64,000 bases of DNA. Source: Lethocerus indicus. Taxonomy: Eukaryota > Arthropoda > Insecta > Hemiptera > Belostomatidae. How positions within the stretch are numbered: the stretch's first letter is position 1; each line of letters begins with the position of its first letter. The stretch lies in the NCBI GenBank assembly GCA_019843655.1, contig JACDQD010000003.1, positions 9,426,925 to 9,490,924 on the forward strand, read 5' to 3'. The notes beneath the pieces were generated by a model. The model saw nothing but the letters and a program-made list of their open reading frames with translations, was not told where the DNA came from and made no database searches. Below are positions 3,616 through 31,310 of this stretch, in pieces. The position numbers were made by a program, and so were the translations under genes.

Positions 3616-3908
3616 AAACAATATTCGACCAGATACGATCTCTCTTCCATAATTCTCCGAATATTCTACGAAGTTCGAATCAAAATAAACTAAATTGAAA
3701 TAATCGCACATTATATGCAAACAAAAATTACGTTCATTCATTATATAGGAGAAGTAGCCTTCGTTATCTCATTTATCGTGCGGTCTCTCGACAACTCCCA
3801 GGAATAATCTTAAAACACAATTGTACATATCCGATATCAATAAATTCTGATGCAGTGTTTAATTAGGGATCCTCAATTTCTACTCCAACGGTTTCATCAA
3901 AACGTTAG

Positions 3909-3981
3909 TGCCCCGGGTGAGGATCGAACTCACGACCTTAAGATTATGAGACTTACGCGCTGCCTACTGCGCTACCGAGGC
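3909..3981 (-). tRNA. tRNA-Met-CAT: tRNA-Met (CAT), copy 1
   Basis: This is the full 73-nt elongator methionine tRNA. The acceptor 5' arm GCCTCGG pairs with CCGGGGC (one G-U), the discriminator base is A, and the D stem is GCGC/GCGC. The anticodon loop CTCATAA carries CAT, the stem has the U-U pair usual for eukaryotic elongator Met, and the T arm is GTGAG/CTCAC around TTCGATC. It is not the initiator, which starts AGC and has GGG/CCC pairs in the anticodon stem. The A box is TAGCGCAGTAGG and the B box AGTTCGATCCT. A TTTT terminator begins 6 nt after the gene. As the outermost copy it has the most diverged flanks: the upstream palindrome is degraded and the 3' flank reads CTAACGTTTT. Confidence 0.97.
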
Positions 3982-4242
3982 TGATAGTGATAGTTGCGCA
4001 ATACGTGCCATCGTCAATTATTTCATCTTCCGAAACTGATAAAGATTCCGTTACATATTCCAGTCTTTTCCCTCAATAGGAGGAGTATATTTAGTTGCAT
4101 AATTTGTCATGCACTGTCTGAAATTAAAACTGCTCTGAATAGTCTTAAAACATGGTTTTCATCACTAATCTCAATCAATATTAATGCAGTTTTTAATTAG
4201 GGACCCTCAATTTCTACTCCAACGGTTTCATCAAAACATTAG

Positions 4243-4315
4243 TGCCCCGGGTGAGGATCGAACTCACGACCTTAAGATTATGAGACTTACGCGCTGCCTA
4301 CTGCGCTACCGAGGC
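4243..4315 (-). tRNA. tRNA-Met-CAT: tRNA-Met (CAT), copy 2
   Basis: Body identical to copy 1, 334 bp from it. Type I 3' spacer; standard upstream palindrome. Confidence 0.97.
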
Positions 4316-4576
4316 TGATAGTGATAGTTGCGCAATCCGCGCAACCGTCAATTATTTAATTTTCCGAATCTGATAAAGATCTAGTTACATATTCCAGTAT
4401 TTTCCCTCAATAGGAGAAGTATATTTAGTTGCATAATTTGTCATGCACTGTCTGAAATTAAAACTGCTCTGAATAGTCTTAAAACATGGTTTTCATCACT
4501 AATCTCAATCAATATTAATGCAGTTTTTAATTAAGGACCCTCCATTTCTTCGTCAACGGTTTCATCAAAACATTAG

Positions 4577-4649
4577 TGCCCCGGGTGAGGATCGAACTCA
4601 CGACCTTAAGATTATGAGACTTACGCGCTGCCTACTGCGCTACCGAGGC
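4577..4649 (-). tRNA. tRNA-Met-CAT: tRNA-Met (CAT), copy 3
   Basis: Intact body. Type II 3' spacer (TTCGTC variant). The upstream palindrome lacks one base (CCGCGAACC). The 5' spacer carries a 9-bp insertion near 4732, making this unit 343 bp. Confidence 0.97.
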
Positions 4650-4919
4650 TGATAGTGATAGTTGCGCAATCCGCGAACCGTCAATTATTTAATTTTCCGA
4701 ATCTGATAAAGATCTAGTTACATATTCCAGTCTAATTTCATTTTCCCTCTGAATAGGAGAAGTATATTTAGTTGCATAATTTGTCATGCACTGTCTGAAA
4801 TTAAAACTGCTCTGAATAGTCTTAAAACATGGTTTTCATCACTAATCTCAATCAATATTAATGCAGTTTTTAATTAGGGACCCTCAATTTCTACTCCAAC
4901 GGTTTCATCAAAACATTAG

Positions 4920-4992
4920 TGCCCCGGGTGAGGATCGAACTCACGACCTTAAGATTATGAGACTTACGCGCTGCCTACTGCGCTACCGAGGC
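4920..4992 (-). tRNA. tRNA-Met-CAT: tRNA-Met (CAT), copy 4
   Basis: Intact body, type I 3' spacer, standard 5' flank. Confidence 0.97.
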
Positions 4993-5253
4993 TGATAGTG
5001 ATAGTTGCGCAATCCGCGCAACCGTCAATTATTTAATTTTCCGAATCTGATAAAGATCTAGTTACATATTCCAGTATTTTCCCTCAATAGGAGAAGTATA
5101 TTTAGTTGCATAATTTGTCATGCACTGTCTGAAATTAAAACTGCTCTGAATAGTCTTAAAACATGGTTTTCATCACTAATCTCAATCAATATTAATGCAG
5201 TTTTTAATTAGGGACCCTCAATTTCTACTCCAACGGTTTCATCAAAACATTAG

Positions 5254-5326
5254 TGCCCCGGGTGAGGATCGAACTCACGACCTTAAGATTATGAGACTTA
5301 CGCGCTGCCTACTGCGCTACCGAGGC
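5254..5326 (-). tRNA. tRNA-Met-CAT: tRNA-Met (CAT), copy 5
   Basis: Intact body, type I 3' spacer. The 5' spacer (about 5385-5430) holds a partial duplication of the GCTCTGAATAGTCTTAAAACATG segment found once in other units, so the unit is 355 bp, the longest in the array. Confidence 0.97.
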
Positions 5327-5608
5327 TGATAGTGATAGTTGCGCAATCCGCGCCAACCGTCAATTATTTAATTTCCGAAACTGATAAAGCTCTGAATAGT
5401 CTTAAAACATGTTTTCATGCATAATTCCAGTATTTTCCTCAATAGGAGAAGTATATTTAGTTGCATAATTTGTCATGCACTGTCTGAAATTAAAACTGCT
5501 CTGAATAGTCTTAAAACATGGTTTTCATCACTAATCTCAATCAATATTAATGCAGTTTTTAATTAAGGACCCTCCATTTCTTCGCCAACGGTTTCATCAA
5601 AACATTAG

Positions 5609-5681
5609 TGCCCCGGGTGAGGATCGAACTCACGACCTTAAGATTATGAGACTTACGCGCTGCCTACTGCGCTACCGAGGC
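5609..5681 (-). tRNA. tRNA-Met-CAT: tRNA-Met (CAT), copy 6
   Basis: Intact body, type II 3' spacer (TTCGCC variant). The 5' spacer has GATATAGATC instead of GATAAAGATC, shared with copy 8. Confidence 0.97.
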
Positions 5682-5942
5682 TGATAGTGATAGTTGCGCA
5701 ATCCGCGCAACCGTCAATTATTTAATTTTCCGAATCTGATATAGATCTAGTTACATATTCCAGTCTTTTCCTTCAATAGGAGGAGTATATTTAGTTGCAT
5801 AATTTGTCATGCACTGTCTGAAATTAAAACTGCTCTGAATAGTCTTAAAACATGGTTTTCATCACTAATCTCAATCAATATTAATGCAGTTATTAATTAC
5901 GGACCCTCAATTTTTTCTCTAACGGTTCCATCAAAACATTAG

Positions 5943-6015
5943 TGCCCCGGGTGAGGATCGAACTCACGACCTTAAGATTATGAGACTTACGCGCTGCCTA
6001 CTGCGCTACCGAGGC
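5943..6015 (-). tRNA. tRNA-Met-CAT: tRNA-Met (CAT), copy 7
   Basis: Intact body, type III 3' spacer with an extended T-run on the plus strand and CGGTTCCATC near the tRNA. Palindrome variant CCGCGGAACC. Confidence 0.97.
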
Positions 6016-6276
6016 TGATAGTGATAGTTGCGCAATCCGCGGAACCGTCAATTATTTAATTTTCCGAATCTGATAAAGATCTAGTTAGATATTCCAGTAT
6101 TTTCCCTCAATAGGAGAATTATATTTAGTTGCATAATTTGTCATGCACTGTCTGAAATTAAAACTGCTCTGAATAGTCTTAAAACATGGTTTTCATCACT
6201 AATCTCAATCAATATTAATGCAGTTTTTAATTAGGGACCCTCAATTTCTACTCCAACGGTTTCATCAAAACATTAG

Positions 6277-6349
6277 TGCCCCGGGTGAGGATCGAACTCA
6301 CGACCTTAAGATTATGAGACTTACGCGCTGCCTACTGCGCTACCGAGGC
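6277..6349 (-). tRNA. tRNA-Met-CAT: tRNA-Met (CAT), copy 8
   Basis: Intact body, type I 3' spacer, GATATAGATC 5' variant as in copy 6. Confidence 0.97.
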
Positions 6350-6610
6350 TGATAGTGATAGTTGCGCAATCCGCGCAACCGTCAATTATTTAATTTTCCG
6401 AATCTGATATAGATCTAGTTACATATTCCAGTATTTTCCCTCAATAGGAGAATTATATTTAGTTGCATAATTTGTCATGCACTGTCTGAAATTAAAACTG
6501 CTCTGAATAGTCTTAAAACATGGTTTTCATCACTAATCTCAATCAATATTAATGCAGTTTTTAATTAAGGACCCTCCATTTCTTCGTCAACGGTTTCATC
6601 AAAACATTAG

Positions 6611-6683
6611 TGCCCCGGGTGAGGATCGAACTCACGACCTTAAGATTATGAGACTTACGCGCTGCCTACTGCGCTACCGAGGC
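6611..6683 (-). tRNA. tRNA-Met-CAT: tRNA-Met (CAT), copy 9
   Basis: Intact body, type II 3' spacer (TTCGTC variant). Confidence 0.97.
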
Positions 6684-6939
6684 TGATAGTGATAGTTGCG
6701 CAATCCGCGCAACCGTCAATTATTTAATTTTCCGAATCTGATAAAGATCTAGTTACATATTCCAGTATTTTCCCTCAATAGGAGAAGTATATTTAGTTGC
6801 ATAATTTGTCATGCACTGTCTGAAATTAAAACTGCTCTGAATAGTCTTAAAACATGGTTTTCATCACTAATCTCAATCAATATTAATGCAGTTTTAATTA
6901 GGACCCTCAATTTCTTCAACGGTTTCATCAAAACATTAG

Positions 6940-7012
6940 TGCCCCGGGTGAGGATCGAACTCACGACCTTAAGATTATGAGACTTACGCGCTGCCTACTG
7001 CGCTACCGAGGC
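6940..7012 (-). tRNA. tRNA-Met-CAT: tRNA-Met (CAT), copy 10
   Basis: Intact body. The 3' spacer is shortened (TTTCTTCAACGG), giving 329 bp from copy 9, the smallest spacing. The 5' spacer is of the TCTCCCAAAACTG subtype. Confidence 0.97.
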
Positions 7013-7273
7013 TGATAGTGATAGTTGCGCAATCCGCGCAACCGTCAATTATTTAATCTCCCAAAACTGATAAAGATCCAGTTAGATATTCCAGTATTTT
7101 CCCTCAATAGGAGAAGTATATTTAGTTGCATAATTTGTCATGCACTGTCTGAAATTAAAACTGCTCTGAATAGTCTTAAAACATGGTTTTCATCACTAAT
7201 CTCATTCAATATTAATGCAGTTTTTAATTAGGGACCCTCAATTTCTACTCCAACGGTTTCATCAAAACATTAG

Positions 7274-7346
7274 TGCCCCGGGTGAGGATCGAACTCACGA
7301 CCTTAAGATTATGAGACTTACGCGCTGCCTACTGCGCTACCGAGGC
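7274..7346 (-). tRNA. tRNA-Met-CAT: tRNA-Met (CAT), copy 11
   Basis: Intact body, type I 3' spacer with a TCATTCAATATT variant. 5' spacer TCTCCCGAAACTG, shared only with copy 19. Confidence 0.97.
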
Positions 7347-7607
7347 TGATAGTGATAGTTGCGCAATCCGCGCAACCGTCAATTATTTAATCTCCCGAAA
7401 CTGATAAAGATCCAGTTACATATTCCAGTATTTTCCCTCAATAGGAGAAGTATATTTAGTTGCATAATTTGTCATGCACTGTCTGAAATTAAAACTGCTC
7501 TGAATAGTCTTAAAACATGGTTTTCATCACTAATCTCAATCAATATTAATGCAGTTTTTAATTAGGGACCCTCAATTTCTACTCCAACGGTTTCATCAAA
7601 ACATTAG

Positions 7608-7680
7608 TGCCCCGGGTGAGGATCGAACTCACGACCTTAAGATTATGAGACTTACGCGCTGCCTACTGCGCTACCGAGGC
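7608..7680 (-). tRNA. tRNA-Met-CAT: tRNA-Met (CAT), copy 12
   Basis: Intact body, type I 3' spacer, standard 5' spacer. Confidence 0.97.
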
Positions 7681-7940
7681 TGATAGTGATAGTTGCGCAA
7701 TCCGCGCAACCGTCAATTATTTAATTTTCCGAATCTGATAAAGATCTAGTTACATATTCCAGTATTTTCCCTCAATAGGAGAAGTATATTTAGTTGCATA
7801 ATTTGTCATGCACTGTCTGAAATTAAAACTGCTCTGAATAGTCTTAAAACATGGTTTTCATCACTAATCCCAATCAATATTAATGCAGTTTTAATTAGGG
7901 ACCCTCAATTTCTACTCCAACGGTTTCATCAAAACATTAG

Positions 7941-8013
7941 TGCCCCGGGTGAGGATCGAACTCACGACCTTAAGATTATGAGACTTACGCGCTGCCTACT
8001 GCGCTACCGAGGC
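7941..8013 (-). tRNA. tRNA-Met-CAT: tRNA-Met (CAT), copy 13
   Basis: Intact body, type I 3' spacer. The 5' spacer lacks CT (TTTTCCGAATGATAAAG), a deletion shared with copy 20. Confidence 0.97.
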
Positions 8014-8271
8014 TGATAGTGATAGTTGCGCAATCCGCGCAACCGTCAATTATTTAATTTTCCGAATGATAAAGATCTAGATACATATTCCAGTATTTTC
8101 CCTCAATAGGAGAAGTATATTTAGTTGCATAATTTGTCATGCACTGTCTGAAATTAAAACTGCTCTGAATAGTCTTAAAACATGGTTTTCATCACTAATC
8201 TCATTCAATATTAATGCAGTTTTAATTAAGGGACCCTCCATTTCTTACCAACGGTGTCATCAGAACATTAG

Positions 8272-8344
8272 TGCCCCGGGTGAGGATCGAACTCACGACC
8301 TTAAGATTATGAGACTTACGCGCTGCCTACTGCGCTACCGAGGC
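8272..8344 (-). tRNA. tRNA-Met-CAT: tRNA-Met (CAT), copy 14
   Basis: Intact body, divergent type II 3' spacer (TTCTTACCAACGGTGTCATCAG). Confidence 0.97.
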
Positions 8345-8606
8345 TGATAGTGATAGTTGCGCAATCCGCGCAACCGTCAATTATTTAATTTTCCGAATCT
8401 GATAAAGATCTAGATAGATATTCCAGTATTTTCCCTCAATAGGAGAAGTATATTTAGTTGCATAATTTGTCATGCACTGTCTGAAATTAAAACTGCTCTG
8501 AATAGTCTTAAAACATGGTTTTCATCACTAATCTCAATCAATATTAATGCAGTTATTAATTACGGACCCTCAATTTCTACTCTCAACGGTTTCATCAAAA
8601 CATTAG

Positions 8607-8678
8607 TGCCCCGGTGAGGATCGAACTCACGACCTTAAGATTATGAGACTTACGCGCTGCCTACTGCGCTACCGAGGC
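8607..8678 (-). pseudogene. tRNA-Met-CAT: tRNA-Met (CAT), copy 15, one-base deletion
   Basis: This copy is 72 nt because the GGG run of the plus strand is GG: on the RNA strand CTCACCCGGGGC becomes CTCACCGGGGC. The 3' acceptor strand loses its innermost base next to the T arm. The anticodon, D arm and both pol III boxes are intact, so it may be transcribed but would have a strained acceptor/T junction. A homopolymer sequencing error is an equally good explanation. Type III 3' spacer. Confidence 0.7.
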
Positions 8679-8939
8679 TGATAGTGATAGTTGCGCAACC
8701 CGCGAATACCGTCAATTATTTAATTTTCCGAATCTGATAAAGATCTAGTTACATATTCCAGTATTTTCCTCAATAGGAGAATTATATTTAGTTGCATAAT
8801 TTGTCATGCACTGTCTGAAATTAAAACTGCTCTGAATAGTCTTAAAACATGGTTTTCATCACTAATCTCATTCAATATTAATGCAGTTTTTAATTAGGGA
8901 CCCTCAATTTCTACTCCAACGGTTTCATCAAAACATTAG

Positions 8940-9012
8940 TGCCCCGGGTGAGGATCGAACTCACGACCTTAAGATTATGAGACTTACGCGCTGCCTACTG
9001 CGCTACCGAGGC
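8940..9012 (-). tRNA. tRNA-Met-CAT: tRNA-Met (CAT), copy 16
   Basis: Intact body, type I 3' spacer with the TCATTCAATATT variant. Confidence 0.97.
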
Positions 9013-9273
9013 TGATAGTGATAGTTGCGCAATCCGCGCAACCGTCAATTATTTAATTTTCCGAATCTGATAAAGATCTAGTTACATATTCCAGTATTTT
9101 CCCTCAATAGGAGAAGTATATTTAGTTGCATAATTTGTCATGCACTGTCTGAAATTAAAACTGCTCTGAATAGTCTTAAAACATGGTTTTCATCACTAAT
9201 CTCAATCAATATTAATGCAGTTTTTAATTAAGGACCGTCCATTTCTTCGCCAACGGTTTCGTCAAAACATTAG

Positions 9274-9346
9274 TGCCCCGGGTGAGGATCGAACTCACGA
9301 CCTTAAGATTATGAGACTTACGCGCTGCCTACTGCGCTACCGAGGC
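9274..9346 (-). tRNA. tRNA-Met-CAT: tRNA-Met (CAT), copy 17
   Basis: Intact body, type II 3' spacer with GGACCGTCC, shared with copy 21. Confidence 0.97.
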
Positions 9347-9607
9347 TGATAGTGATAGTTGCGCAATCCGCGCAACCGTCAATTATTTAATTTTCCGAAT
9401 CTGATAAAGATCTAGTTACATATTCCAGTATTTTCCCTCAATAGGAGAAGTATATTTAGTTGCATAATTTGTCATGCACTGTCTGAAATTAAAACTGCTC
9501 TGAATAGTCTTAAAACATGGTTTTCATCACTAATCTCATTCAATATTAATGCAGTTTTTAATTAGGGACCCTCAATTTCTACTCCAACGGTTTCATCAAA
9601 ACATTAG

Positions 9608-9680
9608 TGCCCCGGGTGAGGATCGAACTCACGACCTTAAGATTATGAGACTTACGCGCTGCCTACTGCGCTACCGAGGC
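9608..9680 (-). tRNA. tRNA-Met-CAT: tRNA-Met (CAT), copy 18
   Basis: Intact body, type I 3' spacer. In the 5' spacer GAAGTATATT is changed to GAAGAGTATT near 9781. Confidence 0.97.
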
Positions 9681-9941
9681 TGATAGTGATAGTTGCGCAA
9701 TCCGCGCAACCGTCAATTATTTAATTTTCCGAATCTGATAAAGATCTAGTTACATATTCCAGTATTTTCCCTCAATAGGAGAAGAGTATTTAGTTGCATA
9801 ATTTGTCATGCACTGTCTGAAATTAAAACTGCTCTGAATAGTCTTAAAACATGGTTTTCATCACTAATCTCAATCAATATTAATGCAGTTTTTAATTACG
9901 GACCCTCAATTTTTTCTCCAACGGTTCCATCAAAACATTAG

Positions 9942-10014
9942 TGCCCCGGGTGAGGATCGAACTCACGACCTTAAGATTATGAGACTTACGCGCTGCCTAC
10001 TGCGCTACCGAGGC
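9942..10014 (-). tRNA. tRNA-Met-CAT: tRNA-Met (CAT), copy 19
   Basis: Intact body, type III 3' spacer. 5' spacer TCTCCCGAAACTG as in copy 11. Confidence 0.97.
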
Positions 10015-10275
10015 TGATAGTGATAGTTGCGCAATCCGCGCAACCGTCAATTATTTAATCTCCCGAAACTGATAAAGATCCAGTTACATATTCCAGTATT
10101 TTCCCTCAATAGGAGAAGTATATTTAGTTGCATAATTTGTCATGCACTGTCTGAAATTAAAACTGCTCTGAATAGTCTTAAAACATGGTTTTCATCACTA
10201 ATCTCAATCAATATTAATGCAGTTTTTAATTAGGGACCCTCAATTTCTACTCCAACGGTTTCATCAAAACATTAG

Positions 10276-10348
10276 TGCCCCGGGTGAGGATCGAACTCAC
10301 GACCTTAAGATTATGAGACTTACGCGCTGCCTACTGCGCTACCGAGGC
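10276..10348 (-). tRNA. tRNA-Met-CAT: tRNA-Met (CAT), copy 20
   Basis: Intact body, type I 3' spacer. The upstream palindrome carries a C-to-T change (TTGCGTAATCC). The 5' spacer has the CT deletion of copy 13. Confidence 0.97.
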
Positions 10349-10607
10349 TGATAGTGATAGTTGCGTAATCCGCGCAACCGTCAATTATTTAATTTTCCGA
10401 ATGATAAAGATCTAGATACATATTCCAGTATTTTCCCTCAATAGGAAAGGTATATTTAGTTGCATAATTTGTCATGCACTGTCTGAAATTAAAACTGCTC
10501 TGAATAGTCTTAAAACATGGTTTTCATCACTAATCTCAATCAATATTAATGCAGTTTTTAATTAAGGACCGTCCATTTCTTCGCCAACGGTTTCATCAAA
10601 ACATTAG

Positions 10608-10680
10608 TGCCCCGGGTGAGGATCGAACTCACGACCTTAAGATTATGAGACTTACGCGCTGCCTACTGCGCTACCGAGGC
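10608..10680 (-). tRNA. tRNA-Met-CAT: tRNA-Met (CAT), copy 21
   Basis: Intact body, type II 3' spacer with GGACCGTCC. 5' spacer TCTCCCAAAACTG. Confidence 0.97.
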
Positions 10681-10941
10681 TGATAGTGATAGTTGCGCAA
10701 TCCGCGCAACCGTCAATTATTTAATCTCCCAAAACTGATAAAGATCCAGTTAGATATTCCAGTATTTTCCCTCAATAGGAGAATTATATTTAGTTGCATA
10801 ATTTGTCATGCACTGTCTGAAATTAAAACTGCTCTGAATAGTCTTAAAACATGGTTTTCATCACTAATCTCAATCAATATTAATGCAGTTTTTAATTAAG
10901 GACCCTCCATTTCTTCGTCAACGGTTTCATCAAAACATTAG

Positions 10942-11014
10942 TGCCCCGGGTGAGGATCGAACTCACGACCTTAAGATTATGAGACTTACGCGCTGCCTAC
11001 TGCGCTACCGAGGC
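10942..11014 (-). tRNA. tRNA-Met-CAT: tRNA-Met (CAT), copy 22
   Basis: Intact body, type II 3' spacer. The palindrome is shortened (GCGCAACCGCGCAA). 5' spacer has GATCCCTAG. Confidence 0.97.
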
Positions 11015-11273
11015 TGATAGTGATAGTTGCGCAACCGCGCAACCGTCAATTATTTAATTTTCCGAATCTGATAAAGATCCCTAGTTAGATATTCCAGTAT
11101 TTTCCCTCAATAGGAGAAGTATATTTAGTTGCATAATTTGTCATGCACTGTCTGAAATTAAAACTGCTCTGAATAGTCTTAAAACATGGTTTTCATCACT
11201 AATCTCAATCAATATTAATGCAGTTTTAATTAGGACCCTCAATTTCTACTCAACGGTTTCATCAAAACATTAG

Positions 11274-11346
11274 TGCCCCGGGTGAGGATCGAACTCACGA
11301 CCTTAAGATTATGAGACTTACGCGCTGCCTACTGCGCTACCGAGGC
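11274..11346 (-). tRNA. tRNA-Met-CAT: tRNA-Met (CAT), copy 23
   Basis: Intact body; short type I 3' spacer (CTACTCAACGG). 5' spacer TCTCCCAAAACTG. Confidence 0.97.
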
Positions 11347-11606
11347 TGATAGTGATAGTTGCGCAATCCGCGCAACCGTCAATTATTTAATCTCCCAAAA
11401 CTGATAAAGATCCAGTTAGATATTCCAGTATTTTCCTCAATAGGAGAAGTATATTTAGTTGCATAATTTGTCATGCACTGTCTGAAATTAAAACTGCTCT
11501 GAATAGTCTTAAAACATGGTTTTCATCACTAATCTCAATCAATATTAATGCAGTTTTTAATTAAGGACCCTCCATTTCTACTCCAACGGTTTCATCAAAA
11601 CATTAG

Positions 11607-11679
11607 TGCCCCGGGTGAGGATCGAACTCACGACCTTAAGATTATGAGACTTACGCGCTGCCTACTGCGCTACCGAGGC
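11607..11679 (-). tRNA. tRNA-Met-CAT: tRNA-Met (CAT), copy 24
   Basis: Intact body. The 3' spacer is a type I/II mosaic (AAGGACCCTCC followed by CTACTCC), which suggests recombination between subtypes. The 5' spacer has small insertions, including GCAGTTACTG, giving a 341-bp unit. Confidence 0.97.
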
Positions 11680-11947
11680 TGATAGTGATAGTTGCGCAAT
11701 CCGCGCAACCGTCAATTATTTAATTTTCCCGAATCTGATAAAGATCCATAGTTACATATTCCAGTATTTTCCTCAATAGGAGAAGTATATTTAGTTGCAT
11801 AATTTGTCATGCAGTTACTGTCTGAAATTAAAACTGCTCTGAATAGTCTTAAAACATGGTTTTCATCACTAATCTCAATTCAATATTAATGCAGTTTTAA
11901 TTAAGGGACCCTCAATTTCTACTCCAACGGTTTCATCAAAACATTAG

Positions 11948-12021
11948 TGCCCCGGTGTGAGGATCGAACTCACGACCTTAAGATTATGAGACTTACGCGC
12001 TGCCTACTGCGCTACCGAGGC
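11948..12021 (-). pseudogene. tRNA-Met-CAT: tRNA-Met (CAT), copy 25, one-base insertion
   Basis: This copy is 74 nt: the plus-strand CCCCGGGTGAGG reads CCCCGGTGTGAGG, so the T stem/acceptor junction has an extra base and an altered pair. The remainder of the gene is unchanged. It is the same site as the indel in copy 15, so this G-run is the weak point of the array or a recurrent consensus error. Confidence 0.7.
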
Positions 12022-12278
12022 TGATAGTGATAGTTGCGCAATCCGCGCAACCGTCAATTATTTAATCTTTCCGAATCTGATAAGATCTAGTTACATATTC
12101 CAGTATTTTCCTTAATAGGAGATGTATATTTATTTGCATAATTTGTCATGCACTGTCTGAAATTAAAACTGCTCTGAATAGTCTTAAAACATGGTTTTCA
12201 TCACTAATCTCAATCAATATTAATGCAGTTTTAATTAGGGACCCTCAATTTCTTCCAACGGTTTCATCAAAACATTAG

Positions 12279-12351: not shown

Positions 12352-12612
12352 TGATAGTGATAGTTGCGCAATCCGCGAAACCGTCAATTATTTAATCTCC
12401 CAAAACTGATAAAGATCCAGTTAGATATTCCAGTATTTTCCCTCAATAGGAGAATTATATTTAGTTGCATAATTTGTCATGCACTGTCTGAAATTAAAAC
12501 TGCTCTGAATAGTCTTAAAACATGGTTTTCATCACTAATCTCAATCAATATTAATGCAGTTTTTAATTAGGGACCCTGAATTTATACTCCAACGGTTTCA
12601 TCAAAACATTAG

Positions 12613-12685
12613 TGCCCCGGGTGAGGATCGAACTCACGACCTTAAGATTATGAGACTTACGCGCTGCCTACTGCGCTACCGAGGC
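12613..12685 (-). tRNA. tRNA-Met-CAT: tRNA-Met (CAT), copy 27
   Basis: Intact body, type IV 3' spacer. 5' spacer TCTCCCAAAACTG. Confidence 0.97.
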
Positions 12686-12947
12686 TGATAGTGATAGTTG
12701 CGCAATCCGCGCGAACCGTCAATTATTTAATCTCCCAAAACTGATAAAGATCCAGTTAGATATTCCAGTATTTTCCCTCAATAGGAGAAGTATATTTAGT
12801 TGCATAATTTGTCATGCACTGTCTGAAATTAAAACTGCTCTGAATAGTCTTAAAACATGGTTTTCATCACTAATCTCAATCAATATTAATGCAGTTTTTA
12901 ATTAGGGACCCTGAATTTATACTCCAACGGTTTCATCAAAACATTAG

Positions 12948-13020
12948 TGCCCCGGGTGAGGATCGAACTCACGACCTTAAGATTATGAGACTTACGCGCT
13001 GCCTACTGCGCTACCGAGGC
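12948..13020 (-). tRNA. tRNA-Met-CAT: tRNA-Met (CAT), copy 28
   Basis: Last and first-reading copy of the minus-strand array. Intact body, type IV 3' spacer (shared only with copy 27, so these two units duplicated recently). Its 5' flank keeps unit homology to about 13172, then gives way to Trp-array sequence. Confidence 0.97.
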
Positions 13021-13032
13021 TGATAGTGATAG

Positions 13033-13049
13033 TTGCGCAATCCGCGCAA
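13033..13049. promoter_or_regulatory. Conserved inverted repeat upstream of tRNA-Met units
   Basis: TTGCGCAATCCGCGCAA (arms TTGCGC/GCGCAA around 5 bp) lies 12-28 bp upstream of the copy 28 tRNA. It recurs in most units, with small changes in copies 1, 3, 7, 20, 22, 26 and 27. A TTAAATAATT AT-rich box follows about 20 bp further upstream. The position fits an external element that modulates RNA polymerase III initiation, but the repeat may simply be inherited spacer sequence. Confidence 0.4.
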
Positions 13050-13181
13050 CCGTCAATTATTTAATTTTCCGAATCTGATAAAGATCTAGTTACATATTCC
13101 AGTATTTTCCCTCAATAGGAGAAGTATATTTAGTTGCATAATTTGTCATGCATTATCTGCAATTAAAGCTGCGCTATTTAA

Positions 13182-13235
13182 GACAGCAATAAACCTCTGA
13201 CTCCAATAGAAGGTTGGTGTTCAATCATGAGGTCA
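13182..13235 (+). pseudogene. tRNA-Trp-CCA: Decayed tRNA-Trp relic at the array junction
   Basis: This stretch keeps CTGACTCCA (anticodon region), AGAAGGTTG, a damaged T arm (TGTTCAATCATG) and GAGGTCA with the array's TTTTATAGTGGCGAT 3' flank. The acceptor 5' strand and D arm are destroyed, leaving about 54 of 72 nt. It sits directly between the Met and Trp arrays and is followed by a normal Trp spacer, so it is the worn outermost unit of the Trp array. Confidence 0.85.
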
Positions 13236-13408
13236 GCATGTTTTATAGTGGCGATTGTTCAATATAGTGCCCGATTCCAATTTTATACCCAGGACGTCCA
13301 TTAGAGGCACAGAATGAATTCAGACAGAGTTTCAAAGATTTTCTTTATATCATTATAATTGATTTACCCGTCTCATTAAATTAATGGGTTTATTTCAACA
13401 TTTTTTCA

Positions 13409-13480
13409 GACTTCGTGGCGCAACGGTAGCGCGTCTGACTCCAGATCAGAAGGTTGCGTGTTCAAATCACGTCGAGGTCA
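13409..13480 (+). tRNA. tRNA-Trp-CCA: tRNA-Trp (CCA), plus copy 1
   Basis: This is the full 72-nt tryptophan tRNA. The acceptor GACTTCG pairs with CGAGGTC (one T-G), the discriminator is A, and the D arm starts GCGC with the AACGG loop. Anticodon stem TCTGA/TCAGA surrounds the loop CTCCAGA (anticodon CCA). The T arm is GCGTG/CACGT-type around TTCAAAT. The A box is TGGCGCAACGG and the B box GTTCAAATCAC. The body matches the animal tRNA-Trp consensus closely. A T6 stretch precedes the gene and TTTT follows it. Confidence 0.97.
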
Positions 13481-13692
13481 GCATAGTTTTATAGTGGCGA
13501 TATGTTCAATATAGTGCTGATAAGAAACCGATGGAGAAGAAGTTTGGACACACCGGAATCACAATTTTATACCCCGGGACGTCCATTAGAGGCACAGAAT
13601 GAATTCAGGCATTGAGCTTCCAAAGATTTTTCTTTTATATCATTATAATTGATTTACCTCTCATTAAATCAATGGGTTTATTCAACATATCA

Positions 13693-13764
13693 GACTTCGT
13701 GGCGCAACGGTAGCGCGTCTGACTCCAGATCAGAAGGTTGCGTGTTCAAATCACGTCGAGGTCA
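13693..13764 (+). tRNA. tRNA-Trp-CCA: tRNA-Trp (CCA), plus copy 2
   Basis: Body identical to plus copy 1. The 5' flank CAACATATCAG and the spacer before it (GGCATTGAGCTTCC) are diverged from the array core. Confidence 0.97.
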
Positions 13765-13972
13765 GCATAGTTTTATAGTGGCGATATGTTCAATATAGTG
13801 CTGATAAGAAACCGATGGACAAGAAGTTTAGACACACCGGAATCACAATTTTATACACCGGGACGTCCATTAGAGGCACAGAATGAATTCAGGCATAGTT
13901 TCAAAGATTTTCTTTATATCATTATAATTGATTTACTCTCATTAAATCAATGGGTTTATTCAATACATTTCA

Positions 13973-14044
13973 GACTTCGTGGCGCAACGGTAGCGCGTCT
14001 GACTCCAGATCAGAAGGTTGCGTGTTCAAATCACGTCGAGGTCA
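13973..14044 (+). tRNA. tRNA-Trp-CCA: tRNA-Trp (CCA), plus copy 3
   Basis: Intact. Its whole 280-bp unit is nearly identical to that of plus copy 4, a recent duplication. Confidence 0.97.
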
Positions 14045-14252
14045 GCATAGTTTTATAGTGTCGATATGTTCAATATAGTGCTGATAAGAAACCGATGGAC
14101 AAGAAGTTTGGACACACCGGAATCACAATTTTATACCACGGGACGTCCATTAGAGGCACAGAATGAATTCAGACATAGTTTCAAAGATTTTCTTTATATC
14201 ATTATAATTGATTTACTCTCATTAAATCAATGGGTTTATTCAATACATTTCA

Positions 14253-14324
14253 GACTTCGTGGCGCAACGGTAGCGCGTCTGACTCCAGATCAGAAGGTTG
14301 CGTGTTCAAATCACGTCGAGGTCA
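14253..14324 (+). tRNA. tRNA-Trp-CCA: tRNA-Trp (CCA), plus copy 4
   Basis: Intact; twin of plus copy 3, differing by a few spacer substitutions. Confidence 0.97.
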
Positions 14325-14498
14325 GCATAGTTTTATAGTGGCGATATGTTCAATATAGTGCTGAAAGAAACCGATGGACAAGAAGTTTGGACACACCGGA
14401 AGGGACGTCCATTAGAGGCACAGAATGAATTCAGGCATAGTTTCAAAGATTTTCTTTATATCATTATAATTGATTTACTCATTAAATCAATGGGTTTA

Positions 14499-14570
14499 GA
14501 CTTCGTGGCGCAACGGTAGCGCGTCTGACTCCAGATCAGAAGGTTGCGTGTTCAAATCACGTCGAGGTCA
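14499..14570 (+). tRNA. tRNA-Trp-CCA: tRNA-Trp (CCA), plus copy 5
   Basis: Intact body in a 246-bp unit. The spacer has lost part of the ATCACAATTTTATACC block, and the usual TTCAATACATTTCA is missing just upstream, so the gene follows GGGTTTA directly. Confidence 0.96.
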
Positions 14571-14781
14571 GCATAGTTTTATAGTGGCGATATGTTCAAT
14601 ATAGTGCTGATAAGAAACCGATGGACAAGAAGTTTGGACACACCGGAATCACAATTTTATACAACGGGACGTCCATTAGAGGCACAGAATGAATTCAGAC
14701 ATGAGTTTCAAAGAATTTTCTTATATCATTATAATTGATTTCACCTCATTAAACTTCAATGGGTTTATTCAATACATTTCA

Positions 14782-14853
14782 GACTTCGTGGCGCAACGGT
14801 AGCGCGTCTGACTCCAGATCAGAAGGTTGCGTGTTCAAATCACGTCGAGGTCA
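14782..14853 (+). tRNA. tRNA-Trp-CCA: tRNA-Trp (CCA), plus copy 6
   Basis: Intact; the spacer before it has small insertions (AAAGAATTTTC, AAACTTCAATGGG). Confidence 0.97.
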
Positions 14854-15055
14854 GCATAGTTTTATAGTGGCGATATGTTCAATATAGTGCTGATAAGAAA
14901 CCGATGGAGAAGAAGTTTGGACACACCGGATTCACAATTTTACGGACGTGCATTTGAGGCACAGAATGAATTCAGGCATAGTTTCAAAGATTTTCTTTAT
15001 ATCATTATAATTTATTTCCTCTCATTAAATCAATGGGTTTATTAAATACATTTCA

Positions 15056-15127
15056 GACTTCGTGGCGCAACGGTAGCGCGTCTGACTCCAGATCAGAAGG
15101 TTGCGTGTTCAAATCACGTCGAGGTCA
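15056..15127 (+). tRNA. tRNA-Trp-CCA: tRNA-Trp (CCA), plus copy 7
   Basis: Intact; the preceding spacer has lost TACCCCGG, and the 5' flank reads ATTAAATACATTTC. Confidence 0.97.
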
Positions 15128-15333
15128 GCATAGTTTTATAGTGGCGATATGTTCAATATAGTGCTGATAAGAAACCGATGGACAAGAAGTTTGGACACAC
15201 CGGAATCACAATTTTATACCCCGGGACGTCCATTAGAGGCACAGAATGAATTCAGACAGAGTTTCAAAGATTTTCGAAATCATTATAATTGATTTACTCT
15301 CATTAAATCAATGGGTTTATTCAATACATTTCA

Positions 15334-15405
15334 GACTTCGTGGCGCAACGGTAGCGCGTCTGACTCCAGATCAGAAGGTTGCGTGTTCAAATCACGTCGA
15401 GGTCA
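15334..15405 (+). tRNA. tRNA-Trp-CCA: tRNA-Trp (CCA), plus copy 8
   Basis: Intact; spacer variant GATTTTCGAAATCATT upstream. The 3' flank reads GCAAAGTTTT. Confidence 0.97.
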
Positions 15406-15593
15406 GCAAAGTTTTATAGTGGCGATATGTTCAATATAGTGCTGATAAGAAACCGATGGACCACACCGGAATCACAATTTTATACCCCGGGACGTCCATT
15501 AGAGGCACAGAATTGCAGGCATACTTTCAAAGATTTTCTTTATATCATTATAATTGATTTAATTAAATCAATGGGTTTATTCAATACATTTCA

Positions 15594-15657
15594 GACTCGT
15601 GGCGCAACGGTAGCGCGTCTGAGATCAGAAGGTTGCGTGTTCAAATCACGTCAGTCA
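15594..15657 (+). pseudogene. tRNA-Trp-CCA: tRNA-Trp, plus copy 9, anticodon deleted
   Basis: Only 64 of 72 nt remain. One T is missing from the acceptor 5' strand (GACTCG), CTCCA is deleted from the anticodon loop (GTCTGAGATCAG) so no anticodon is left, and two bases are lost near the 3' end (CGTCAGTCA). Both internal promoter boxes survive. It cannot make a working tRNA-Trp. Confidence 0.92.
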
Positions 15658-15859
15658 GCAGTTTTATAGTGGCGATATGTTCAATATAGTGCTGATAAGA
15701 AACCGATGGACAAGAAGTTTGGACACACCGGAATCACAATTTTATACAACGGGACGTCCATTAGAGGCACAGAATGAATTCCATAGTTTCAAAGATTTTC
15801 TTTATATCATTATAATTTATTTCCTTACTTAAATCAATGGGTTTATTCAATACATTTCA

Positions 15860-15930
15860 GACTTCGTGGCGCAACGGTAGTGCGTCTGACCCAGATCAGA
15901 AGGTTGCGTGTTCAAATCACGTCGAGGTCA
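15860..15930 (+). pseudogene. tRNA-Trp-CCA: tRNA-Trp, plus copy 10, short anticodon loop
   Basis: This copy is 71 nt. The D stem reads GTGC instead of GCGC, and the anticodon loop has lost its T (GACCCAGATC), leaving a 6-nt loop. It is probably non-functional. Confidence 0.8.
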
Positions 15931-16114
15931 GCATAGTTTTATAGTGGCGATATGTTCAAATAGTGCTGATAAGAAACCGATGGACAAGAAGTTTGGACAC
16001 ACCGGAATCACAATTTTATACCCCGGGACGTCCATTAGAGGCACAGAATTCACAGAGTTTCAAAGATTTTCTTTATATCATTATAATTGATTTACTCTCA
16101 TTAAATCAATGGGT

Positions 16115-16186
16115 GACTTCGTGGCGCAACGGTAGCGCGTCTGACTCCAGATCAGAAGGTTGCGTGTTCAAATCACGTCGAGGTCA
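16115..16186 (+). tRNA. tRNA-Trp-CCA: tRNA-Trp (CCA), plus copy 11
   Basis: The body is intact although the 5' flank is deleted up to CAATGGGT, so the upstream AT-rich segment is closer than in other copies. Confidence 0.95.
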
Positions 16187-16353
16187 GCAAAGTTTTATAG
16201 TGGCGATATGTTCAATATAGTGCTGATAAGAAACCGATGGACAAGAAGTTTGGACACACCGGAATCACAATTTTATACCCCGGACGTCCATTAGAGGCAC
16301 AGAATGAATTTGCTTTATATCATTATAATTGATTTACTCTCAGAAACATTTCA

Positions 16354-16420
16354 GACTGTGGCGCAACGGTAGCGCGTCTGACTCCAGATCAGAAGGTTGC
16401 GTGTTCAAATCACGAGGTCA
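16354..16420 (+). pseudogene. tRNA-Trp-CCA: tRNA-Trp, plus copy 12, acceptor stem broken
   Basis: This copy is 67 nt. TC is missing from the acceptor 5' strand (GACTGTGG) and three bases from the 3' strand region (CACGAGGTCA). The CCA anticodon is intact. The spacer before it is also heavily deleted (239-bp unit). Confidence 0.9.
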
Positions 16421-16627
16421 GCATAGTTTTATAGTGGCGATATGTTCAAATAGTGCTGATAAGAAACCGATGGACAAGAAGTTTGGACACACCGGAATCA
16501 CAATTTTATACCCCGGGACGTCCATTAGAGGCACAGAATGAATTCAGATTGAATTTCAAAGATTTTCTTTATATCATTATAATTGATTTACTCTCATTAA
16601 ATCAATGGGTTTATTCAATACATTTCA

Positions 16628-16699
16628 GACTTCGTGGCGCAACGGTAGCGCGTCTGACTCCAGATCAGAAGGTTGCGTGTTCAAATCACGTCGAGGTCA
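16628..16699 (+). tRNA. tRNA-Trp-CCA: tRNA-Trp (CCA), plus copy 13
   Basis: Intact; the spacer upstream carries CAGATTGAATTTC, shared with plus copy 16. Confidence 0.97.
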
Positions 16700-16907
16700 G
16701 CATAGTTTTATAGTGGCGATATGTTCAATATAGTGCTGATAAGAAACCGATGGACAAGAAGTTTGGACACACCGGAATCACAATTTTATACCCCGGGACG
16801 TCCATTAGAGGCACAGAATGAATTCAGGCATAGTTTCAAAGATTTTCTTTATATCATTATAATTGATTTACTCTCATTAAATCAATGGGTTTATTAAATA
16901 CATTTCA

Positions 16908-16979
16908 GACTTCGTGGCGCAACGGTAGCGCGTCTGACTCCAGATCAGAAGGTTGCGTGTTCAAATCACGTCGAGGTCA
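16908..16979 (+). tRNA. tRNA-Trp-CCA: tRNA-Trp (CCA), plus copy 14
   Basis: Intact; 5' flank ATTAAATACATTTC as in plus copy 7. Confidence 0.97.
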
Positions 16980-17186
16980 GCATAGTTTTATAGTGGCGAT
17001 ATGTTCAATATAGTGCTGATAAGAAACCGATGGAGAAGAAGTTGAGACACACCGGAATCACAATTTTATACCCGGGACGTCCATTAGAGGCACAGAATGA
17101 ATTCAGGCATAGTTTCAAAGATTTTCTTTATATCATTATAATTGATTTACTCTCATTAAATCAATGGGTTTATTCAACACATTTCA

Positions 17187-17258
17187 GACTTCGTGGCGCA
17201 ACGGTAGCGCGTCTGACTCCAGATCAGAAGGTTGCGTGTTCAAATCACGTCGAGGTCA
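17187..17258 (+). tRNA. tRNA-Trp-CCA: tRNA-Trp (CCA), plus copy 15
   Basis: Intact; first unit with the TTCAACACATTTCAG 5' flank typical of the right half of the array. Confidence 0.97.
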
Positions 17259-17465
17259 GCATAGTTTTATAGTGGCGATATGTTCAATATAGTGCTGATA
17301 AGAAACCGATGGACAAGAAGTTTGGTCACACCGGAACTCACAATTTTATACCCGGACGTCCATTAGAGGCACAGAATGAATTCAGATTGAATTTCAAAGA
17401 TTTTCTTTATATCATTATAATTGATTTACTCTCATTAAATCAATGGGTTTATTCAACACATTTCA

Positions 17466-17537
17466 GACTTCGTGGCGCAACGGTAGCGCGTCTGACTCCA
17501 GATCAGAAGGTTGCGTGTTCAAATCACGTCGAGGTCA
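17466..17537 (+). tRNA. tRNA-Trp-CCA: tRNA-Trp (CCA), plus copy 16
   Basis: Intact; the spacer upstream has GGAACTCACAATTTTATACCC and CAGATTGAATTTC. Confidence 0.97.
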
Positions 17538-17742
17538 GCATAGTTTTATAGTGGCGATATGTTCAATATAGTGCTGAAAAGAAACCGATGGACAAGAAGT
17601 TTGGACACACCGGAATCACAATTTTATACCCCGGGACCTCCATTAGAGGCACAGAATGAATTCAGACAGAGTTTCCAAGATTTTCTTTATATCATTATAA
17701 TTGATTTACTCTCATTAAATCAATGGGTTTAGTCAATTTTCA

Positions 17743-17814
17743 GACTTCGTGGCGCAACGGTAGCGCGTCTGACTCCAGATCAGAAGGTTGCGTGTTCAAA
17801 TCACGTCGAGGTCA
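17743..17814 (+). tRNA. tRNA-Trp-CCA: tRNA-Trp (CCA), plus copy 17
   Basis: Intact; 5' flank TTTAGTCAATTTTCAG, a unique variant. Confidence 0.97.
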
Positions 17815-18022
17815 GCATAGTTTTATAGTGGCGATATGTTCAATATAGTGCTGATAAGAAACCGATGGAGAAGAAGTTTAGACACACCGGAATCACAATT
17901 TTATACCCCGGGACGTCCATTAGAGGCACAGAATGAATTCAGACAGAGTTTCAAAGATTTTCTTTATATCATTATAATTGATTTACTCTCATTAAATCAA
18001 TGGGTTTATTCAACACATTTCA

Positions 18023-18094
18023 GACTTCGTGGCGCAACGGTAGCGCGTCTGACTCCAGATCAGAAGGTTGCGTGTTCAAATCACGTCGAGGTCA
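18023..18094 (+). tRNA. tRNA-Trp-CCA: tRNA-Trp (CCA), plus copy 18
   Basis: Intact; first of a near-identical run of 280-bp units (copies 18-20). Confidence 0.97.
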
Positions 18095-18302
18095 GCATAG
18101 TTTTATAGTGGCGATATGTTCAATATAGTGCTGATAAGAAACCGATGGAGAAGAAGTTTGGACACACCGGAATCACAATTTTATACCCCGGGACGTCCAT
18201 TAGAGGCACAGAATGAATTCAGACAGAGTTTCAAAGATTTTCTTTATATCATTATAATTGATTTACTCTCATTAAATCAATGGGTTTATTCAACACATTT
18301 CA

Positions 18303-18374
18303 GACTTCGTGGCGCAACGGTAGCGCGTCTGACTCCAGATCAGAAGGTTGCGTGTTCAAATCACGTCGAGGTCA
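18303..18374 (+). tRNA. tRNA-Trp-CCA: tRNA-Trp (CCA), plus copy 19
   Basis: Intact; 3' flank GCAAAGTTTT. Confidence 0.97.
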
Positions 18375-18582
18375 GCAAAGTTTTATAGTGGCGATATGTT
18401 CAATATAGTGCTGATAAGAAACCGATGGAGAAGAAGTTGAGACACACCGGAATCACAATTTTATACAACGGGACGTCCATTAGAGGCACAGAATGAATTC
18501 AGACAGAGTTTCAAAGATTTTCTTTATATCATTATAATTGATTTACTCTCATTAAATCAATGGGTTTATTCAACACATTTCA

Positions 18583-18654
18583 GACTTCGTGGCGCAACGG
18601 TAGCGCGTCTGACTCCAGATCAGAAGGTTGCGTGTTCAAATCACGTCGAGGTCA
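18583..18654 (+). tRNA. tRNA-Trp-CCA: tRNA-Trp (CCA), plus copy 20
   Basis: Intact; the spacer upstream has TACAACGGGACG, also seen before plus copies 6 and 10. 3' flank GCAAAGTTTT. Confidence 0.97.
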
Positions 18655-18861
18655 GCAAAGTTTTATAGTGGCGATATGTTCAATATAGTGCTGATAGAAA
18701 CCGATGGACAAGAAGTTTGGACACACCGGAATCACAATTTTATACCCCGGGACGTCCATTAGAGGCACAGAATGTATTCAGACAGAGTTTCAAAGATTTT
18801 CTTTATATCATTATAATTGATTTACTCTCATTAAATCAATGGGTTTATTCAACACATTTCA

Positions 18862-18933
18862 GACTTCGTGGCGCAACGGTAGCGCGTCTGACTCCAGATC
18901 AGAAGGTTGCGTGTTCAAATCACGTCGAGGTCA
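18862..18933 (+). tRNA. tRNA-Trp-CCA: tRNA-Trp (CCA), plus copy 21
   Basis: Last plus-strand copy. The body and the first 15 bases of 3' flank (GCATAGTTTTATAGT) are normal; the unit then joins inverted-unit sequence at about 18949. Confidence 0.97.
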
Positions 18934-19269
18934 GCATAGTTTTATAGTGGGGTTATATAATCAATGGTATTTAATGAGCTACGTCAATTGTAATGATAAG
19001 GATGAAATCGTAGAAGTAGTTATCATTTTGATTGTTTGATTGTTTCTTTGATTGTTGTTTCCTACCATTCACACGGACGTGTTTTTAATCAGTGGTCCAA
19101 GTGCATTATCTCTCAACGGACCAAATTAATTCGCAAAATAATGTAATGAATTCTGTCTCTTTAATAAACATAGCGGGGTATAAAATTTTGATTCCGGTGT
19201 GTCTAAAGTTCTAGTGTATCGGTTTCTTTTCAGCACTATATTGAACATATCGCCACTATAAAACTATGC

Positions 19270-19341
19270 TGACCTCGACGTGATTTGAACACGCAACCTT
19301 CTGATCTGGAGTCAGACGCGCTACCGTTGCGCCACGAAGTC
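19270..19341 (-). tRNA. tRNA-Trp-CCA: tRNA-Trp (CCA), minus copy 1
   Basis: Body identical to the plus copies. It faces plus copy 21 tail to tail across 336 bp. Its 5' flank (CCAAAGAATAATAAGTGG) is diverged from the next three copies. Confidence 0.97.
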
Positions 19342-19685
19342 CAAAGAATAATAAGTGGACCCATTCATTTAATGAAACTACGTCAATTATAATGATATCA
19401 ACGAAATGTTAGAAATACTGATACAATTTACTCTAGTGTTTAACGAATCACACGGACTAGTTTTCAGTCAATATTCCAGATGCATTATGCTTTATTAGGG
19501 GTAAATTAGTTTTTAAAGGGCTAAATTGTTTGGTTTGGAAACTTCTTCTCCAATAAATGAATCCGCCACCCGTGGCACTCGGAGGCATGAAAATTGTACC
19601 CGGTGGGTAAATATCTCGCCAAAGGGCTTGTGCATGGCATCCTTCTCAGCACTATATTGAACATATCGCCACTATAAAACTATGC

Positions 19686-19757
19686 TGACCTCGACGTGAT
19701 TTGAACACGCAACCTTCTGATCTGGAGTCAGACGCGCTACCGTTGCGCCACGAAGTC
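19686..19757 (-). tRNA. tRNA-Trp-CCA: tRNA-Trp (CCA), minus copy 2
   Basis: Intact; the 5' spacer (19758-19990) is almost identical to that of minus copy 3. Confidence 0.97.
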
Positions 19758-20077
19758 TGAAATGTATTGAATAAACCCATTGATTTAATGAAAGTTCAGC
19801 AATTATAATGATATAAAGAAAATCTTTGAAATTCTGATCATTTGCACTGCAGTTTCTTACCATTCAAACGGACTAGTTCTCAGAGAATAATCCAGATGCA
19901 TTATGGTTCGATGGATAAAAATGGATTCGAAAATTATGTAATGAATTTACTCCGTGGCCTAAAAGGGAGTCCGTAAGTATAAATTTGTGCCCGATGGTCT
20001 TACTCTTCCCCAGCTACTTGTGTATCGTCCATCCTTTTCAGCACTACATTGAACATATCACCACTATAAAACTATGC

Positions 20078-20149
20078 TGACCTCGACGTGATTTGAACAC
20101 GCAACCTTCTGATCTGGAGTCAGACGCGCTACCGTTGCGCCACGAAGTC
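20078..20149 (-). tRNA. tRNA-Trp-CCA: tRNA-Trp (CCA), minus copy 3
   Basis: Intact; unit nearly identical to minus copy 2, a recent tandem duplication of about 392 bp. Confidence 0.97.
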
Positions 20150-20473
20150 TGAAATGTATTGAATAAACCCATTGATTTAATGAAAGTTCAGCAATTATAA
20201 TGATATAAAGAAAATCTTTGAAATTCTGATCATTTGCACTGCAGTTTCTTACCATTCAAACGGACTAGTTCTCAGAGAATAATCCAGATGCATTATGGTT
20301 CGATAGATAAAAATGGATTCGAAAATTATGTAATGAATTTACTCCGTGGCCTAAAAGGGAGTCCGTAAGTATAAATTTGTGCCTCCGATAGGTCTTACTC
20401 TTCCCCAGCTACTTGTGTATCGTCCATCCTTTTCAGCACTACATTGAACATATCACCACTATAAAAATTATGC

Positions 20474-20545
20474 TGACCTCGACGTGATTTGAACACGCAA
20501 CCTTCTGATCTGGAGTCAGACGCGCTACCGTTGCGCCACGAAGTC
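20474..20545 (-). tRNA. tRNA-Trp-CCA: tRNA-Trp (CCA), minus copy 4
   Basis: Intact; the terminator run is lengthened (plus strand ATAAAAATTATGC, a T5 on the RNA strand). The 5' flank keeps TTAATGAGAGTAAATCAATT as in the plus array. Confidence 0.97.
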
Positions 20546-20861
20546 TGAAATGTATTGAATAAACCCATTGATTTAATGAGAGTAAATCAATTATAATGTT
20601 ATCAACAAAATCTTTGCAATTCTGATCATTTTTATTGCAGTTTCTTACCAATCACACGGACTAGTTTTCAGACAATATTCCAGATGCATTATGGTTCGAT
20701 GGATAAAAATGGATTCGACAATTATGTAATGAATTGCCTCCGTGGCCTAAAAGGGAGTCCGTAGGACCCCGATCCGATAGACCTGAATCTTGCCAAAGGA
20801 CTTGTTCCTCGCACATCCTTATCAAAATGACATTTAATATATCACCACTATAAAACTAAAT

Positions 20862-20933
20862 TGACCTCGACGTGATTTGAACACGCAACCTTCTGATCTG
20901 GAGTCAGACGCGCTACCGTTGCGCCACGAAGTC
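20862..20933 (-). tRNA. tRNA-Trp-CCA: tRNA-Trp (CCA), minus copy 5
   Basis: Intact body at the right edge of the array. Its 3' flank is diverged (TAAAACTAAAT) and unit homology stops 3 bp upstream of the tRNA, where unrelated sequence begins. Confidence 0.97.
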
Positions 20934-20936
20934 TGC

Positions 20937-23308: not shown

Positions 23309-23362
<54 letters not shown>
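23309..23362. repeat. (TA)n microsatellite
   Basis: About 27 uninterrupted TA repeats. Open frames across it translate to tyrosine/isoleucine runs and are artefacts. Confidence 0.97.

Positions 23363-31277: not shown

Positions 31278-31310
<33 letters not shown>

Follow-up and report, generated by a model that had tools for sequence, protein, structure and literature searches.

Adjoining tRNA-Met and tRNA-Trp gene arrays of Lethocerus indicus look like neighbours by coincidence

In a 64-kb stretch of the Lethocerus indicus genome (assembly GCA_019843655.1, contig JACDQD010000003.1, positions 9,426,925 to 9,490,924; hereafter the window, with coordinates counted from its first letter), an array of 28 elongator tRNA-Met genes directly adjoins 26 tRNA-Trp genes, the tRNAs of the two single-codon amino acids. 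Each family is built of its own repeat units, both arrays are decayed where they touch, units have exchanged sequence, the genes are under constraint, and arrays of other tRNA families recur elsewhere in the genome. The Met/Trp pairing looks like a coincidence, and we consider it highly probable that the locus as a whole reflects independent tandem growth of the two families, with recombination between units and selection on the genes. It thus illustrates how tRNA families expand: independent arrays come to touch, their edges decay, and their genes stay constant while their spacers shift.

The copies were counted by three methods. BLAST with both gene sequences found 28 Met and 26 Trp copies within the window; ARAGORN read 53 tRNA genes, of which 28 are Met-CAT, 24 are Trp-CCA and the last has a damaged anticodon; and the Rfam tRNA model gave 54 matches above its gathering score, spanning 3909-20933, with no further match above that score in the rest of the window. 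ARAGORN also found no tRNA gene in the sequence adjacent to the window, over 20 kb on its left side and 10 kb on its right. The first-pass annotation, a model's reading of the letters, had reported the same 28 and 26 adjoining copies, and its starting point of 3740 was well chosen, since decayed similarity to the Met unit begins at about 3745. Most copies are in good condition: 49 of the 54 score 65.6-67.5 bits, in keeping with a full tRNA fold, five damaged ones score 36.6-55.6 bits, and the genes are letter-identical in 26 of 28 Met and 23 of 26 Trp copies. Tandem Repeats Finder (TRF) recovered periods of 334, 280 and 392 with scores of 16985, 7499 and 2144 respectively, which rule out chance. 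Start-to-start distances among the 54 copies are 239-461 nt, with a Met-Trp gap of 388 nt, so that the whole series is a tRNA gene cluster by the definition of PMC2888827, which asks for neighbours closer than 1000 nt. A run of at least four T lies within 40 nt downstream of 53 of the 54 copies (27/28 Met, 26/26 Trp), and judging from these features most copies are probably transcribable by RNA polymerase III (Pol III). The Met gene at 8272 is the only Met copy that lacks such a run.

The Met array (3909..13020, minus strand; ARAGORN, TRF, Rfam and BLAST) consists of 334-bp units. Two genes carry a small lesion in their 3' half: a 1-nt deletion at 8607..8678 (minus strand; BLAST, and 53.5 bits in Rfam against 65.6 for intact genes) and a 1-nt insertion at 11948..12021 (minus strand; BLAST, 55.6 bits). 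To the left, a partial unit at 3745..3908 (minus strand; scoring 82.5 when aligned locally with the consensus of the Met unit) forms a decayed margin with numerous substitutions and one 4-bp gap. To the right, the spacer that lies upstream of the last Met gene on this side (13021..13185, minus strand; alignment to the consensus) is identical to the consensus over some 130 bases, beyond which it decays up to 13185. The Trp side opens with a relic unit at 13196..13403 (plus strand; alignment to the Trp consensus), made of a gene remnant at 13196-13235 and spacer, in which 12 deletions of 1-26 bases, one 3-nt insertion and about five substitutions have accumulated. It is followed by a forward array of 21 tRNA-Trp(CCA) genes in units of about 280 bp, 18 of them intact (13409..18933, plus strand; ARAGORN, TRF, Rfam and BLAST), and then by an inverted array of five identical tRNA-Trp genes with a period of about 392 (19270..20933, minus strand; ARAGORN, TRF and BLAST). 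The spacers of the inverted array are diverged, with 74-84% identity in five of six pairs and 99% in one, and its units are related to the forward ones (90-97% across the gene and 3' flank). Neither the inversion of the last five Trp genes nor the gene remnant at the junction had been recorded in the first-pass annotation.

Were the two families amplified together, as one compound locus? This had been proposed earlier, and the units speak against it. A compound Met-Trp repeat was considered and rejected: every unit holds a single gene, the locus comprises three distinct unit types, and the Met unit has no similarity to the Trp consensus at E 1e-3. The two families meet instead at decayed edges. 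Decayed margins flanking a homogeneous core are the usual signature of unequal exchange.

The same edges bear on the quality of the assembly. An assembly artefact, which would make the Met/Trp junction, the number of copies or the damage in the Trp units erroneous, is in our judgement distinctly unlikely. Both arrays are decayed at the junction, which would not be expected from a misjoin of clean units and therefore disfavours one; the 64-kb window contains no N; and the exact 37-nt Met core occurs 32 times in the genome, 28 times in the window and just four times on contig C5, where none of the four forms part of a second copy of the Met array. The suspicion draws some strength from another array, of tRNA-His and tRNA-Arg genes, that is present twice on different contigs, and from a group of Trp units rich in deletions, both described below.

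Within the Met array, sequence has moved between units. The spacers are similar (mean pairwise identity 96%, about 4% difference), and when 17 informative sites were compared in pairs, all four combinations of variants were present in 89 of 136 pairs. Met units have therefore exchanged sequence. A search for higher-order repeats in the Met array found no unit offset that reached significance.

Amid these shifting spacers, the Met and Trp genes are under constraint. Across 27 Met units, 60 of 261 spacer columns are variable, whereas substitutions affect none of the 73 columns of the gene (Fisher p 1e-7); when indels are counted, 3 of 73 gene columns vary (p 8e-5). Across 17 Trp units (three damaged ones of 20 excluded), variation affects 43 of 208 spacer columns and none of 72 gene columns (p 2e-6), and the five inverted Trp genes have remained identical despite the divergence of their spacers. 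The four Met genes outside the window, all read as Met by ARAGORN, show 100% identity with the array gene, and similarity stops at most 2 nt into their flanks. Because the Met gene is identical amid unrelated flanks, selection is favoured over array-wide conversion.

These dispersed genes also help to dispose of the notion that we are dealing with a tRNA-derived short interspersed element (SINE) or another mobile repeat in place of gene arrays. The tRNA-like sequence is indeed in high copy, and the genome yielded 21983 tRNA candidates (63 scored), so tRNA-like repeats may be common elsewhere. However, the copies here run head to tail with a regular period, 49 of 54 form the high-scoring cloverleafs described above, no copy lies elsewhere in the window, and the four dispersed Met genes share the gene only and not its flanks. 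We reject a mobile repeat.

Is the Met/Trp locus exceptional in its own genome? The assembly (426.8 Mb, 209 contigs) was searched for tRNAs and the stretches around matches were read with ARAGORN; with 63 of the 21983 candidates scored, the search samples only the best-scoring families. Contig C11 carries Lys-TTT genes, at least 47 of them (38 on the minus and 9 on the plus strand), together with two Cys-GCA genes; they extend over about 26 kb as several groups with a period of 149, the Lys count being a lower bound with one stretch there containing N. Contig C7 holds 31 Thr genes (18 AGT, 12 TGT, one damaged) with a period of 272. On contig C8, eight His-GTG genes directly adjoin 10 Arg-TCG genes (five minus, five plus, one Arg damaged), and a stretch of contig C99 repeats this one in inverted form, with 9889 identical bases and no mismatch. 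We counted it once, as it is probably a duplicated stretch of the assembly, and it lends some weight to the idea of an artefact raised above. Dispersed Met and Lys genes are present besides the arrays. For Trp, the DNA search of the genome matched two damaged window copies only, and the exact pattern matched nothing, missing even the 23 intact copies of the window. In fact, arrays, adjoining arrays of different families and inversions within an array all recur in the Lethocerus indicus genome. In the Thr array, AGT and TGT anticodons are intermixed within one 272-bp unit family, as if they had been switched within the array.

Since Lys, Thr, His and Arg are also arrayed, having a single codon is not the cause of arraying, and the pairing of the two single-codon families loses its special meaning. 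The first-pass annotation had held that the pairing would not be special if most tRNA families formed similar arrays, and had called for a search for Met copies elsewhere. Much of this came true, with Lys (at least 47 genes), Thr (31), Arg (10) and His (8) all arrayed, although "most" goes further than 63 scored candidates of 21983 can support; for Met, four of the 32 exact cores indeed lie outside the window. Of the three explanations that it had offered, coincidence, dosage selection and a structural role, coincidence is the best supported.

Selection for dosage would hold that Met and Trp, each served by a single elongator tRNA species in high demand, need many gene copies. In its favour, 49 of the 54 genes are undamaged and match the other such genes of their family letter for letter, nearly all copies have a T-run and the genes are constrained; if active, the window array would supply most of this tRNA, as 28 of the 32 exact Met cores belong to it. 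A precedent for such activity comes from Arabidopsis, where, in the available part of the report, a cluster of Ser and Tyr genes is usually silent and becomes active in root cap cells, and where deleting it alters the accumulation of a transgenic protein rich in Ser, Tyr and Pro (PMC12308677). Copy numbers fit poorly with a demand for dosage here. Typical proteomes contain about two Met residues for every Trp, a twofold difference that the 28 and 26 copies do not follow, and families with several codons are arrayed as well. We therefore regard dosage selection as unlikely.

The locus belongs to a known kind, the animal tRNA gene clusters. A survey of 74 genomes describes large clusters in several animals, among them Nematostella and teleosts; in its available part these resemble the present locus in grouping tRNA genes by the dozen at distances below 1000 nt, with homogeneous or heterogeneous neighbours and suspected local duplication, and differ in that no Met/Trp case is named there, whereas the Lethocerus families each have their own unit (PMC2888827). 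Tandem tRNA units are likewise found in the Arabidopsis Ser-Tyr-Tyr (SYY; PMC12308677) and Cys (PMC10701932) clusters, as far as the accessible portions of these two sources go. The Cys cluster is similar also in that its copy number is variable and that it starts with a pseudogene, according to the portion of PMC10701932 at hand. The SYY cluster, in contrast, is described in the available text of PMC12308677 as tandemly repeated Ser and Tyr genes together, and the Lethocerus locus has no Met-Trp unit. In Entamoeba, several families are arrayed and the function is obscure, as here; the accessible part of that account states, however, that nearly all tRNA genes are arrayed, with up to five per unit, whereas Lethocerus has dispersed Met and Lys genes and single-gene Met and Trp units (PMC2652664). 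Paired Met and Trp arrays are not described in the titles or abstract openings among the open-access matches listed, many of which concern mitochondria.

How could such a locus arise? We envision that a Met gene and a Trp gene were chance neighbours pointing away from each other. Each would then have been amplified separately, most likely through unequal crossing-over, and the Trp side would additionally have taken in an inverted group of five. Recombination among units may shuffle and homogenise the spacers, and purifying selection, possibly aided by gene conversion, would preserve the genes.

Several points weigh against this independent growth. Stepwise duplication alone would make neighbouring Met units more similar than we observe: neighbours are not clearly more alike than distant units (lowest p 0.06, at offset 8), and the correlation between similarity and distance is weak (Spearman 0.15, p 0.005, from pairs that are non-independent). 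Gene-limited conversion could imitate selection inside the arrays. Finally, independent growth does not explain a nearly invariant block in the Met spacers, nor does it explain the deletion-rich Trp units. We take these last two as leads, on what keeps an array uniform and on what damages it.

The block covers 97 nt of the Met spacer (Met unit positions 52-148) and has two variable columns of 97, against 58 of 164 in the remaining spacer. Its 54-nt core (first copy at 4097..4150, minus strand) is exact in 26 of 27 Met spacers, the exception being unit M24 with a 4-nt insertion at unit position 129; outside the Met spacers it has no match in the window with up to three mismatches allowed. Variants flanking the block on its two sides recombine with each other, 45 of 63 cross-block site pairs failing the four-gamete test. 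Its significance depends on how the variable sites are treated: merging those less than 1, 3, 6 and 10 nt apart gave p of 0 of 20000, 0.0001, 0.004 and 0.06, in a test that omits insertion columns, and when insertions are counted the longest invariant run is 56 instead of 76. Rfam searches of the spacers (gathering score and E 5) returned only tRNAs and one chance-like match, hence no family for the block. Folding is unremarkable for a structured RNA within it (z of -1.8 for the strand that carries the gene and of +1.0 for the opposite one). Exact-match searches found the block absent from genome_contigs and the Met and Trp genes absent from viral_contigs, prokaryotic and viral collections that are little informative here.

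What might the block do? It is conceivable, though doubtful, that it is a second constrained element of each Met unit, one that would serve the array rather than the gene because the four dispersed Met genes are without it; an insulator site, an array-wide enhancer or a start point of gene conversion would then be the candidate roles. Going further, the cluster as a whole could form a boundary in chromatin or work as an insulator, the Met-spacer block being its candidate binding site. The near-invariance of the block would suit such a structural role, and so would the human 1q23.3 tRNA repeat, in which the available part of PMC4041453 describes a 24-bp CTCF site kept in units whose remaining sequence is not conserved between human and mouse. 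Both loci are thus tandem tRNA repeats with a short conserved non-tRNA element; the human units, according to the same portion of PMC4041453, are GC-rich and 7.3 kb long and contain a CTCF site, whereas those of Lethocerus are AT-rich and 334 bp long, with a block that has no Rfam match. However, the Trp units do not have the block, the four dispersed Met genes are without it, and it is missing from the 20 further genome stretches compared; its significance also fades once variable sites less than 10 nt apart are merged. Clumped spacer variation is also present in the Lys array, which counts against the block being special. From sequence comparison, a structural role would seem very unlikely. 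The Lys array also shows looser constraint on its genes: 21 of 26 genes of one block are identical, and variable columns number 8 of 73 in the gene and 19 of 76 in the spacer.

Two further features of the Met units were noted. Spacer positions 231-251 of the unit, roughly 11-31 nt ahead of every Met gene, form an inverted repeat with an 8-bp stem. Eighteen of the 27 units have it unchanged and nine carry alterations; the 36-nt stretch around it folds with z -4.4. An antisense match to Plastid-ycf2 over the Met genes was taken as chance (20.4 bits against a cut-off of 65.7).

The second lead concerns forward Trp units F08-F12 (15334..16627, plus strand; unit comparison), in which the genes at 15594, 15860 and 16354 are damaged by loss of bases. 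These five units hold 19 of the 30 deletions found in the 20 forward units (binomial p 1e-5, for a group picked post hoc). They have no insertions and only two private substitutions, 12 others being shared with other units; a further 14, which lie no more than 4 nt from a gap and could stem from misalignment, were left out of this count. Microhomology at the deletions is not above chance (mean 0.57, expected 0.73, 95% 0.43-1.10). Ordinary decay should yield more substitutions than these units show, and the damage would be compatible either with locally poor sequence quality or with a repair process prone to deletions. This concentration of deletions without insertions favours the assembly artefact weighed above; yet deletions of 12-20 bases are, in our judgement, long for base-calling errors.

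In the rest of the window, 137 distinct open reading frames (ORFs) of 436 (at least 45 aa, outside the arrays) were searched against Pfam, 10 at E 1 and 128 at E 0.01 with one common to both, and no family was found at or above cut-off, a search that short exons could escape; the best match among the 10 was the sub-threshold DUF7563. A dispersed repeat is represented by a 48-bp stretch at 2724-2771 that recurs with 87-91% identity in four of 10 other genome stretches compared. TRF also detected long TC/GA-rich repeats and TA runs at 31270-31366, 48118-48220, 49601-49667, 23309-23362 and 53241-53282. The CpG observed/expected ratio of the whole window is 1.15, without depletion, which would fit an animal with low germline methylation.

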